DNA of 64,000 nucleotides, from NCBI RefSeq assembly GCF_027530345.1, contig NZ_JAPZQK010000002.1:1-64000 (forward strand). Reading direction: 5' to 3'. Origin of the DNA: Silanimonas sp. Lineage in GTDB: Bacteria > Pseudomonadota > Gammaproteobacteria > Xanthomonadales > Xanthomonadaceae. The translations under genes were made by a program, and so were the position numbers. This document shows positions 1 through 3,263 of the stretch, piece by piece. Below the pieces are notes generated by a model. That model saw nothing but the letters and a program-made list of their open reading frames with translations, was not told where the DNA came from and did no database searches. How positions within the stretch are numbered: position 1 is the stretch's first letter; each line of letters starts with the position of its first letter.

Positions 1-182
1 CCGGCGGCGGGGTAAGTGCGTCCGCTGGACGGGGAAACCCGTCTGGCGGCGCGAAAAAACCGCGAAATACGGCCAGATTGACGCGATTTCGGCCTTCAGG
101 CCGCGAAATCACGAGGGTTTGGCGGGTTGTTCAGACCATCCTTAGGCGGGGCTTTTCGTTGTCCTGAGTCTGGACGGTGCTG

Positions 183-710
183 ATGCCGCATCTGATCAAG
201 CGACTTCTCTTTTCGCTCATATGTGCAGGGGGCGCGCTCGCCTTGATCACGTTTCCTGTCGTTGACTTGTTCATGCCATCCAGAAAGGAGCTCGAGGATG
301 CCTTTTGGATCTTTCCGGGTCTTTTCCTCTTGCCGATCGCCATCTTCTTTATCGCCTGGCTGGTCATCGCGGGCACCGGGGCGCTTCTGGTAGGACTGTT
401 GGCGTATTGCGTATTCCCGCTTCTTGGGCCGCTGACCGCGCACTTTCGCGGAACGGCCGTTCAGGCGTATTGGGTGGTCAGAGACGACGCCCTCGAGGCG
501 AAGGACTGGAACACTGTCCTGCAGGCGTTTCCGGATGCTGCGTCAAGGGCTCACTGGATACCAACGGTTCCGGATGACCTTCCGGAGGAATTCCATCCTC
601 AGCCCGGCATCCGACTTCCCTACTCGGCAGAGAATCTCCGCTTGGCGAGGAAGATCGCCAAGCTGCTGGATGGATACGTCCAGGAGAGGCGTGCACCTCT
701 CGATGGCTAG
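183..710 (+). CDS. Hypothetical inner-membrane protein
   Basis: A 175-residue protein that I do not recognise. The first 80 residues hold two or three hydrophobic stretches, roughly residues 8-28, 43-62 and 66-82, so it is probably an inner-membrane protein. The remaining 90 residues are soluble and contain no motif I can name. A GTG two codons upstream at 177 is an alternative start; neither has a strong Shine-Dalgarno sequence. It stands alone, running toward the minus-strand cysteine-repeat gene, with 185 bases between the two 3' ends. Base use is slightly less GC-rich than its neighbours over the first 300 bases, which may indicate a more recent arrival. No function is proposed. Confidence 0.6.
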   Translation: MPHLIKRLLFSLICAGGALALITFPVVDLFMPSRKELEDAFWIFPGLFLLPIAIFFIAWLVIAGTGALLVGLLAYCVFPLLGPLTAHFRGTAVQAYWVVRDDALEAKDWNTVLQAFPDAASRAHWIPTVPDDLPEEFHPQPGIRLPYSAENLRLARKIAKLLDGYVQERRAPLDG

Positions 711-895: not shown

Positions 896-1372
896 TCAAC
901 CTCCAGCCCGGCACGCTGCCCGGCGGTCCGGATCGCGAATGAACCCGCACTGGGATTCCCCGCCGCCGGTGCGGGCGCGGCAGTGGGCACGCAGGTCGTC
1001 GTCGCGGATGAAGCCGCACTGGCTCGATTCACCGTCCGTGGTGGCGCGACAGAAGGCGCGCTGGTCGGGATCGCGGATGAAGCCGCATTGGCTCCCACCG
1101 CCACCGGTCTCGGCCCGACAGCGCGAACGGAGGTCGGCATCGCCGATGAAGCCGCATTGGGATTCACTGCCTTCCTGCTTGGCCCGACAGTAGGCCCGCT
1201 GGTCGGCATCGCGGATGAAGCCGCACTCGCTGCTGCTTCCGTCGGCCTCCGCACGGCAGGCCGCGCGGCGATCCGGGTCCTTGATGAAGCCGCATTCCGA
1301 CGAGCGGGCCTGAAGCCCCGACGCGGCGAGGAGGGCCAGCCAGAGCGGCAGGAAGGCGAGACGGAAGCGCAT
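896..1372 (-). CDS. Secreted protein of six 23-residue cysteine-pair repeats
   Basis: A 158-residue protein with a clear Sec signal peptide (residues 1-22, likely cleaved after LQA). The whole mature chain is six tandem copies of a 23-residue unit with the core CGFIRDxDxRxxCRA and a Ser/Gly/Glu-rich linker. The first cysteine of each unit falls at 27, 50, 73, 96, 119 and 142, and the second twelve residues later, giving 12 cysteines. Such spacing suits one disulfide or one metal site per unit in the periplasm or outside the cell. I cannot assign a function. It is divergent from the VWA lipoprotein gene, with only 88 bases between the two starts, so the two may share control. The 69-base DNA period keeps the opposite strand open, but that reading has no signal peptide. 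Confidence 0.75.
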   Translation of the reverse strand: MRFRLAFLPLWLALLAASGLQARSSECGFIKDPDRRAACRAEADGSSSECGFIRDADQRAYCRAKQEGSESQCGFIGDADLRSRCRAETGGGGSQCGFIRDPDQRAFCRATTDGESSQCGFIRDDDLRAHCRARTGGGESQCGFIRDPDRRAACRAGG

Positions 1373-1460: not shown

Positions 1461-3263
1461 ATGTCGACCCGTCCCAACCGCACCGCCCAAACCCTGCTCG
1501 CGACCGCCGTTCTGCTGGCCCTCTCGGGCTGCCGCTCCTCCAACGAGGTCGCCAGCACGCCACCGCCCGAGGAACCGGCCGTCCTGCAAGAGCGCAGCCG
1601 CGAACAGGAATCCCGGCGGCTAGAATCGTTGGTCGTGAACGGCGCACGGGTCCGCAGCGCCGGAGCGAACGCCATCGCCGACGTCGCCTACGCGCCCGCC
1701 CCGCCCCCCGCACCGCCTGCGCCCTCCGCCCAGTTGGGCTTCGCCGCGCCGTCCGTGGCCGCGCCGGCCGCGGATTTCGCCGCGCTTCCCGAGGCCAATA
1801 CCGAGCGCTATGCCGATGTGCCACCGAACCCGGTGCAGCGCGTGGCCGAGCAGCCGGTCTCGACCTTCAGCATCGACGTGGACACAGGCAGCTACAGCAA
1901 CCTGCGCCGCATGATCGGCTGGGGCCAGCGCCCGCCCGCCGACGCAGTGCGCGTCGAAGAACTGCTCAACTACTTCGACTACGCCGACGAAGCGCCCGCC
2001 TCGCGAAGCCAGCCGTTCGCGGTGCACACGGAGGTGGCCCCCGCACCATGGAACGCCCGCCGCCTGCTGATGCGCGTCGCCTTGAAGGCCTACGAGGTGC
2101 CGGCCACCGAGCTGCCGCCCAGCAACCTGGTCTTCCTCGTCGACACCAGCGGTTCGATGCAGGACGCCGACAAGCTTCCGCTGGTGAAGCAGGCCCTGCG
2201 CGAACTGGTGCTGCAAATGCGCCCACAGGACCGCATCGCCCTGGTCGTCTACGCGGGTAGCGCCGGCCTCGTGTTGCCGCCCACCTCCGGTGCCGAACGC
2301 GCCACGATCCTGGAAGCCCTGGATCGCCTCGAAGCCGGCGGTTCCACCAATGGCGGCGCCGGCATCGAACTCGCTTACCGCATCGCCCGCGAGGCGAAGA
2401 TCGACGGCGGCGTGAACCGCATCGTGCTGGCCACCGACGGTGACTTCAACGTCGGAACCACGGACCAGACCACGCTCGAGGCTTTCGTCGCCGAACAGCG
2501 CAAGCACGGCATCGCCCTGTCAACGCTCGGCTTCGGACAGGGCAACTACAACGACGCGATGGCCGAGCAGCTCGCGAACATCGGCGACGGCAACCATGCC
2601 TACATCGACAGCCCACGCGAGGCACGCAAGGTGCTGCGCGACGAAATGGCCGGCACCCTGCTGACCGTCGCCAAGGACGTGAAGATCCAGGTCGAGTTCA
2701 ATCCGGCGCAGGTGGCCGAGTACCGCCTCGTCGGCTACGAGAACCGCCAGCTGAAGCGCGAGGACTTCGCCAACGACGCGGTCGATGCTGGCGAGATCGG
2801 CGCGGGCCACGACGTGACGGCCCTTTACGAGATCGCGCTGGTGGGCAGCGGCGGGGAATGGAACGCGCCGCTGAAGTACGCCGCCGGAGCACGCACGCCT
2901 GCCACCGGTGCCGCGGGCGAGTTGGCCACCGTGCGCCTTCGGTACAAGGCGCCGGAAGGCGGCGCGAGCCGACTGCTGGAGCGCCCGGTCCGCCGCGCCG
3001 ACATAGCCACCACGGCATCGCCCGCACTGCAGTGGGCCGCCGCCGTGACGGCCTACGGCGAGCGCCTGCGCGGCGGTGAGGCGCTGGGCGGTGCAGGCTG
3101 GCCGGAGGTGGCTCGCTGGGTTGATGCGGCCTTCGCTGCCGCGCCGGACGCGCGCGATGCCGCCAGCCGCGACGAACTGCGTCGGATGGTGCGACAGGCC
3201 GCGACGCTCGACGGCGAATCCCTGCCAGAGGCCGAACGGCCTGCGCTGGCAGTGTCCGAATGA
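1461..3263 (+). CDS. VWA-domain lipoprotein (YfbK type)
   Basis: A 600-residue lipoprotein: the signal peptide ends in LSGC with the lipidated Cys24. After a low-complexity Ala/Pro linker comes the von Willebrand precursor-type domain (about residues 115-215). A VWA domain follows with the metal-ion-dependent adhesion motif DTSGS at 228-232, and then a C-terminal DUF3520-like region (about 410-595). This is the YfbK architecture. The protein should be tethered to the membrane facing the periplasm and bind a protein partner through a divalent metal; the partner is unknown. It is followed after 25 bases by an ECF sigma factor and its anti-sigma factor, an arrangement I associate with Xanthomonad genomes, so it probably takes part in the same envelope response. 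Confidence 0.9.
   Translation: MSTRPNRTAQTLLATAVLLALSGCRSSNEVASTPPPEEPAVLQERSREQESRRLESLVVNGARVRSAGANAIADVAYAPAPPPAPPAPSAQLGFAAPSVAAPAADFAALPEANTERYADVPPNPVQRVAEQPVSTFSIDVDTGSYSNLRRMIGWGQRPPADAVRVEELLNYFDYADEAPASRSQPFAVHTEVAPAPWNARRLLMRVALKAYEVPATELPPSNLVFLVDTSGSMQDADKLPLVKQALRELVLQMRPQDRIALVVYAGSAGLVLPPTSGAERATILEALDRLEAGGSTNGGAGIELAYRIAREAKIDGGVNRIVLATDGDFNVGTTDQTTLEAFVAEQRKHGIALSTLGFGQGNYNDAMAEQLANIGDGNHAYIDSPREARKVLRDEMAGTLLTVAKDVKIQVEFNPAQVAEYRLVGYENRQLKREDFANDAVDAGEIGAGHDVTALYEIALVGSGGEWNAPLKYAAGARTPATGAAGELATVRLRYKAPEGGASRLLERPVRRADIATTASPALQWAAAVTAYGERLRGGEALGGAGWPEVARWVDAAFAAAPDARDAASRDELRRMVRQAATLDGESLPEAERPALAVSE

Follow-up and report, generated by a model that had tools for sequence, protein, structure and literature searches.

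Among the described systems closest to the locus reported here, LprI (PF07007) is an exported, helical family, and the bufferins carry DUF2282. Disulfide-bridged alpha/alpha repeats have been described in the Hcp proteins, whose unit has 36 residues (PMC2581425). A small phage-encoded protein, Spackle (gp61.3) of T4, is fully helical and secreted into the periplasm, and it inhibits the tail lysozyme (PMC7650644). In the window, by which we mean the whole stretch of 64,000 nucleotides of the Silanimonas sp. contig that was analysed, one gene encodes a tandem repeat with a period of 23 residues, and its layout, relatives, predicted fold and possible function are compared below with these systems.

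A Gene for Six 23-Residue Units

The open reading frame at 896-1372 (-) starts with ATG and encodes 158 amino acids, and a single copy was found on searching its genome. Residues 1-22 form a hydrophobic leader ending in LQA, a Sec-type signal peptide as judged by sequence. The unit-start cysteines (C27, C50, C73, C96, C119, and C142) follow one another at a period of exactly 23 residues, and in each of the six units the second cysteine lies 12 residues after the first (C-x11-C); the 69-base array was also picked up on the DNA, independently, by TRF. The six 23-residue units and the paired cysteines at fixed spacing given in a preliminary description of this DNA were thus borne out. Its wording that the mature protein is nothing but six units holds except for RSSE at the front of the mature part and a Gly-Gly tail. 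The features are as follows.

896..1372 (-), gene of the six-unit hairpin-repeat protein, putatively exported, 158 aa (ORF, genome search, unit layout, codon comparison)
1307..1372 (-), predicted signal peptide, residues 1-22 (sequence; cleavage after LQA placed by eye)
1226..1294 (-), unit 1 (unit layout)
1157..1225 (-), unit 2 (unit layout)
1088..1156 (-), unit 3 (unit layout)
1019..1087 (-), unit 4 (unit layout)
950..1018 (-), unit 5 (unit layout)
899..949 (-), unit 6, shortened, ending CRAGG (unit layout)
1461..3263 (+), divergent neighbour, VWA protein with YfbK C-terminal domain (Pfam, relatives' loci)

We propose to define the family by a hydrophobic leader followed by tandem C..I.[DN].D....C.A units with cysteines 12 apart, and the window protein has both. 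The aspartate at unit position 8 and the arginine at position 10 had been called invariant. Over 134 units of 49 hand-picked proteins, which include 38 of the 44 viral-contig members described below, aspartate occupies position 8 in 88%, a figure raised by the search pattern, and position 10 is Arg in 72% and Gln in 15%. The invariance of the arginine holds within the window protein and fails in most Burkholderiales units, which have Gln there.

Coding Selection and Local History

The gene was compared with its counterpart, 92% identical, in a Silanimonas MAG of the same genus (L007). The two differ at 9, 4, and 35 first, second, and third codon positions, respectively, and in the gene's frame 29 of the differing codons are synonymous and 12 non-synonymous, giving a dN of 0.046 and a dS of 0.347. 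One antisense frame is also rich in synonymous changes (23 vs. 16), yet it contains stops in both species. Likewise, dN is below dS in two plasmid pairs (0.025/0.100 and 0.006/0.049) and in one Burkholderiales pair (0.034/0.352). The repeat gene is a real gene, not a chance or non-coding repeat. Moreover, the units within the window protein have 57-74% of their nucleotides in common, and therefore the array is old and no fresh duplication. Both halves of the earlier proposal, coding selection and no recent DNA duplication, agree with these values. Across seven proteins, units at the same position are slightly more alike (0.779 vs. 0.737; none of 2,000 shuffles reached 0.779); for the window protein alone this excess is small, and it is reversed against the homologue L015.

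Two genomes of the same genus, G003 (by its coordinates the genome of L007) and G007 (apparently that of L022), share the gene order aldehyde dehydrogenase, repeat gene, yfbK-like gene. In a third, G006, the aldehyde dehydrogenase and yfbK-like genes are direct neighbours, separated by about 90 bases, and the site is empty (L148:1026-1116). The gene of G007 encodes a single unit with two mature cysteines (L022:4222-4335 / L147), whose sequence corresponds to unit 1 running straight into the end of unit 6 and which apparently arose by in-frame loss. Between the window and L007 the yfbK side is kept, and the alignment ends at the stop codon of the repeat gene; the aldehyde dehydrogenase of the L007 type was not found in the window. 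Four other genomes of the genus (G001, G002, G004, and G005, with completeness of 99, 100, 90, and 83%) gave no yfbK match and no convincing repeat gene.

Loss of the signal peptide and of the frame in close relatives had been named as the observation that would speak against a selected, secreted protein. Both are kept in the two same-genus carriers, although one of the two is down to a single unit and a third relative is without the gene. The single unit in one relative of the genus and the empty site in another make the repeat gene look dispensable. YfbK was considered as a functional partner and rejected, because a relative of the same genus has yfbK without the repeat gene and the Burkholderiales homologues have other neighbours. 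Within positions 1-895 of the window, an ORF at 177-710 (+) looks membrane-bound; it had no match in Pfam or PADLOC and one in NCBIfam, far under the cut-off.

Distribution in Bacterial Genomes

Relatives are encoded by 16 of the 81 candidate stretches obtained in a search of genome contigs. They come from the family of the window (L007 and L022) and from MAGs of Burkholderiales or Beta/Gammaproteobacteria, and the named sources are Zwartia panacis, Z. vadi, and Pseudomonas rubra. One relative labelled Crocinitomicaceae (L021) lies on a 3.1-kb contig end, and since its sequence is like that of the beta-proteobacterial members, it may be misbinned. All eleven proteins whose units were mapped, Burkholderiales homologues among them, have six units. 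In five of the eleven (L009, L012, L013, L015, and L017) a gap of 29-30 residues between unit starts splits the array into 3+3, and in P. rubra (L020) there are unit starts 20 and 21 residues apart.

The genome surveys differ in draw, profile, and cut-off, so that the following fractions, each including the genome of the window, do not express one common rate: 6 of 60 relatives' genomes at E<=0.01, three of which (its own, G003, and G007) were counted as members; with the six-unit profile at E<=1e-6, 3 of 369 class genomes; with a three-unit profile at E<=1e-4, 2 of 398 phylum genomes; and with the two-unit profile at E<=1e-3, 4 of 369 class genomes, one of them with an internal stop. The weak matches in G001, G014, G023, G534, and G331 (internal stop) were not counted as members. 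The repeat gene is rare, and with 3 of 369 class genomes matching it is therefore not a core envelope function.

Plasmids, Phages, and Viral Contigs

Similar repeats had been thought to be known only from uncharacterised proteobacterial proteins. This proved too narrow, since the family also occurs in viral contigs, named phages, and plasmids. By tblastn, the window protein matched 118 of 72,556 plasmid records, and Pseudomonas accounted for 116 of the 118. With the three-unit protein of pBT2436 (L028:4950-5204) as query, 117 plasmid records matched; in 109 of them a single place covered 80% or more of the query, and 106 were at least 90% identical. The pBT2436-like plasmids are presumably IncP-2, and the plasmid listing agrees. 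In 36 of the 40 rows listed for this query no gene was annotated under the match, as read from a gene table of the plasmid collection that is incomplete and from which the original records may differ. The three-unit member of the Pseudomonas plasmids is a small, putatively secreted protein of a kind easily missed. Three units are encoded on pBT2436, pHN232-3, pNY11382-IMP, and pPniHBP1_1, six on a P. rhodesiae plasmid and on a plasmid of Pseudomonas sp. 4810-S13, and two on an Atlantibacter plasmid. One plasmid member, searched as DNA against E. coli genomes, gave no match.

Viral contigs were searched for one unit pair, written as C..I.[DN].D....C.A, eight residues, then C..I. The pattern occurred in 66 stretches, 62 of which lay within an open frame. 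The same pattern shifted by one base had no match in viral contigs, and with the period set to 22, 24, or 20 residues as a control the viral stretches numbered 2, 0, and 0, respectively, the 2 being no clear members. Removal of duplicates, of truncated frames, and of rows lacking a suitable ATG left 44 distinct complete viral proteins; two units were present in 34, three in 9, and six in 1. The six-unit protein (L074) is on a 7.2-kb contig that may be bacterial DNA.

The pattern fixes the period, the Cys, Ile, Asp, and Ala of the first unit and the Cys and Ile of the second, and these carry no information; the hydrophobic N-terminus, the absence of further cysteines, and the Arg at position 10 are not part of it. 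In the 44 viral-contig members and the window protein together, a hydrophobic stretch of 10 residues precedes the first unit in 45 of 45, which supports the export signal claimed before. The distance between the two cysteines is 12 in 106 of 107 units, and 44 of the 45 proteins contain, from the first unit onwards, two cysteines in every unit and no others.

Six of 50,697 phage records matched one query by tblastn, namely Touem01, PHB04 (two records), Dolphis, Jeremy, and ST4. In Touem01, Dolphis, and ST4 the repeat gene is flanked by the portal gene on one side and the capsid genes on the other; the PHB04 copy lies between a helicase gene before it and the capsid gene after it, the portal being outside the stretch examined. 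In a second phage group of 14 loci (L096 and 13 others) it lies directly 3' of the gene for a protein of 187-193 aa, which has an N-terminal hydrophobic stretch and, in the one protein scanned, a weak SLT match (E 0.13). Other phage loci examined have different neighbours. Some members are on very large viral contigs (L053, 608 kb; L090, 298 kb; L091, 216 kb; L099, 309 kb), possibly jumbo phages.

No conserved partner gene was found among the neighbours of the phage and bacterial loci examined, and 10 nearby genes of 7 homologue loci included no modifying enzyme, DUF692, or metal-transport family at E<=1e-4. The differing neighbours in phages and bacteria, together with the empty same-genus site, fit a stand-alone accessory gene.

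Predicted Structure and Probable Disulfides

The AlphaFold2 model of the window protein, built on 13 alignment rows, has a mean pLDDT of 85.2 and a pTM of 0.73 and consists of six short alpha-hairpins. Most units in the model begin with a helix of six residues, which a short loop connects to a second one of about 10-13 residues, and the first short helix continues from the leader. A two-unit phage protein modelled on 36 rows (pTM 0.60; pLDDT 87-96 by blocks from residue 21) has the same helix pattern. The preliminary description had pictured beads on a string; a continuous array of short hairpins with a pTM of 0.73 instead suggests that the units would be packed rather than loose.

As to what holds the hairpins, a disulfide or a metal had been proposed, and with exactly two cysteines per unit in almost all members the disulfide is favoured. 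Each hairpin probably contains one disulfide within its own unit, as the cysteine spacing indicates. In such a hairpin, unit positions 1 and 13 would be expected to lie opposite one another at the turn, which makes a bond within the unit the natural reading. Such pairing is supported by the one-unit protein of G007, which has just two mature cysteines, and by the Cys-Cys distance, which stays at 12 while unit starts vary among 20, 21, 23, 29, and 30 residues.

Foldseek returned no match at E<=0.001 for the six-unit model in PDB or BFVD, nor for the two-unit model in PDB. With VIA-align, the two-unit model had no row with Z>=2, and the six-unit model had none with Z>=8; the top row of the latter was an AimR receptor (Z 5.6), and Sel1 proteins were among its better rows (up to Z 5.3). 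The alignment with 8sxq_B had a Z of 5.3 with an rmsd of 12.0 over 133 residues, and unrelated helical repeats reach a Z of about 5. Judged by these predicted models, no solved structure resembles either of them beyond common helical arrangements.

Searches for a Named Family

The window protein reached no curated cut-off in Pfam or NCBIfam, and none of six proteins (five family members and the ORF at 177-710) matched PADLOC at E<=0.1. The absence of a named family, as first described, was therefore upheld in the libraries searched. Among the weak matches, the best in PHROGs for the window protein was phrog_4319 (E 0.008), and one plasmid member matched zf-Paramyx-P in Pfam (E 0.004). Over the 13 six-unit proteins, Pfam gave Ski_Sno_DHD in 6 (best E 0.00034), ArfA in 6 (0.0013), YBR230W-A (0.0014), and Spp-24 and Toxin_5 in 3 each. 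These identities were rejected; they belong to unrelated families scattered over the members and were taken as effects of a repetitive, Cys-rich composition. The Pfam scan covered the window protein and two alignments of 13 and 36 rows, the window being within the 13. By sequence, these 49 alignment rows have scattered weak matches and no coherent family, read from a table in which bit scores are not given for every row and standing under the cut-off is not stated row by row.

The only weak match recurring over most of its profile was DUF7741 (PF24888, cut-off 27 bits), with 14.2 bits (E 0.057) for the window protein (899-1372) and 14.5 bits (E 0.045) for L023. It appeared in 2 of the 13 six-unit proteins (best E 0.022) and in none of the 36 phage proteins at E<=1. 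No DUF7741 proteins for comparison were found in 150 genomes or 14 controls, and no paper naming this domain was found in the literature searched.

The six-unit profile matched no PDB sequence at E<=10. The best PDB sequence for the two-unit profile was the aragonite protein AP7 of abalone nacre (2jyp; E 0.11, not significant), in which the stretch resembling one unit is probably due to chance. The unit motif strings tried occurred in no paper of the literature searched, and no paper on such a family was found. None of the libraries searched yielded a disulfide-bridged alpha/alpha repeat of 23 residues; the longer kind is already known.

Proposed Function and Alternative Explanations

Our main reading, to which as a whole we assign a probability of about 0.6, is that the protein is an exported, disulfide-clamped hairpin scaffold binding a target in the envelope. 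Sec would export the protein, as its leader suggests; each C-x11-C unit would fold into a hairpin of short helix, turn, and long helix, in which a disulfide links the two cysteines of that unit; and stacking of these hairpins would give a small rigid array acting as a non-enzymatic binder of the envelope target. A binding scaffold fits a protein that is probably exported, would be rigid if its cysteines pair, has no conserved catalytic set, gave no conserved partner in the loci examined, and looks dispensable, mobile, and variable in unit number.

The two-unit copies in phages and the two-, three-, and six-unit copies on plasmids make it most likely that the ancestral job paid for a mobile element, which it would have benefited inside the envelope of its host. 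Candidate jobs would be the blocking of a later phage, or the restraint of a wall-cutting enzyme or a receptor in the manner of T4 Spackle, and the six units encoded on chromosomes would make a multivalent form for the host. Given the carriage by phages and plasmids, an envelope-guard role of this kind, either superinfection exclusion or lysis control, is our leading single guess, a conjecture drawn from analogy that we put forward tentatively. Just as tentative is the wider picture of a group of unnamed, phage-borne periplasmic effectors built on a minimal 23-residue disulfide hairpin, with which phages and megaplasmids might guard the envelope of the cell they occupy against rivals or time lysis and which bacteria might have taken over and multiplied to six units.

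Four other explanations were weighed. The protein could be an inhibitor of a lysozyme or transglycosylase, either as a distant relative of LprI or in the way of Spackle. In its favour, LprI domains of the window's relatives also carry a C-x11-C pair, one plasmid copy is next but one to an LprI-family gene, and in the 14 phage loci the repeat gene directly follows the 187-193-aa protein gene with its weak SLT match. However, those 14 loci are one phage group with a shared gene order, and the other neighbours examined are of other kinds. Homology to LprI was itself not supported: hhalign against 7 LprI domains gave a probability of 1.9% and an E of 0.025, which is not significant, and LprI was absent from the Pfam matches of the window protein, of 13 other members scanned singly, and of the 36 and 13 alignment members. 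We consider this explanation unlikely.

Paired cysteines in a probably exported, Cys-rich protein could also bind copper or zinc, which would make it a periplasmic metal buffer like metallothioneins or bufferins. One member, that of the P. rhodesiae plasmid, even scored against DUF2282, but its 9.7 bits (E 1.1) were the best of any member and far under the cut-off of 22.4. There are only two cysteines per unit, 12 apart on two predicted helices, the unit profile has no conserved histidine, and the nearby genes scanned contained neither DUF692 nor a metal-transport family, so a metal buffer is quite unlikely.

That the helical repeats polymerise or sheath a structure, as a surface or extracellular structural protein like CagY, would accord with a unit number that varies among 1, 2, 3, and 6, a variation reported for CagY (PMC2581425). 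On the other hand, 34 of the 44 viral members have only two units, and the even number of cysteines leaves none for intermolecular bonds if all pair within units; this makes a structural role very unlikely. The last explanation is a RiPP-type precursor with several cores, from which the units would be excised as small modified peptides. It draws on the similar repeated units with cysteines and Gly-rich spacers but is barely credible beside two-unit members with short spacers, nearby genes without a modifying enzyme, and a confident predicted fold of the mature chain.

Returning to the hairpin scaffold, if its predicted fold is true, the repeat is a helical one clamped by disulfides and far shorter than that of the Hcp type. 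No family library searched names the family, despite its presence in named phages and in the 116 Pseudomonas plasmid records, where the gene is often unlisted. With a single defined unit motif the family can be searched for, and the phage proteins of two units, at about 63-85 aa with the leader, are small enough for direct functional tests.

Comparison with Known Systems

The SEL1-like repeats of Helicobacter HcpB and HcpC are tandem alpha/alpha repeats with disulfides, the arrangement predicted here. They differ in having a period of 36 residues instead of 23, and no Sel1 match was obtained in Pfam at E<=1. Several LprI domains also have a C-x11-C pair near the N-terminus, a shared spacing that is no homology, whereas LprI is without such tandem repeats and has other conserved residues. 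T4 Spackle is a small secreted helical phage protein (PMC7650644), and its likeness to the phage members would be a functional analogy, with no relation of sequence claimed. In contrast to the predicted hairpin arrays, Spackle is one domain of five helices, for which no repeats are described, and its Cys29 and Cys81 are 52 residues apart (PMC7650644). The repeats of CagY in Helicobacter pylori are likewise Cys-containing and in tandem, are helical as the units here are predicted to be, and tolerate changes in copy number (PMC2581425). Nevertheless, its motif A has 38-39 aa and is rich in Lys and Glu, and CagY belongs to a type IV secretion system (PMC2581425).
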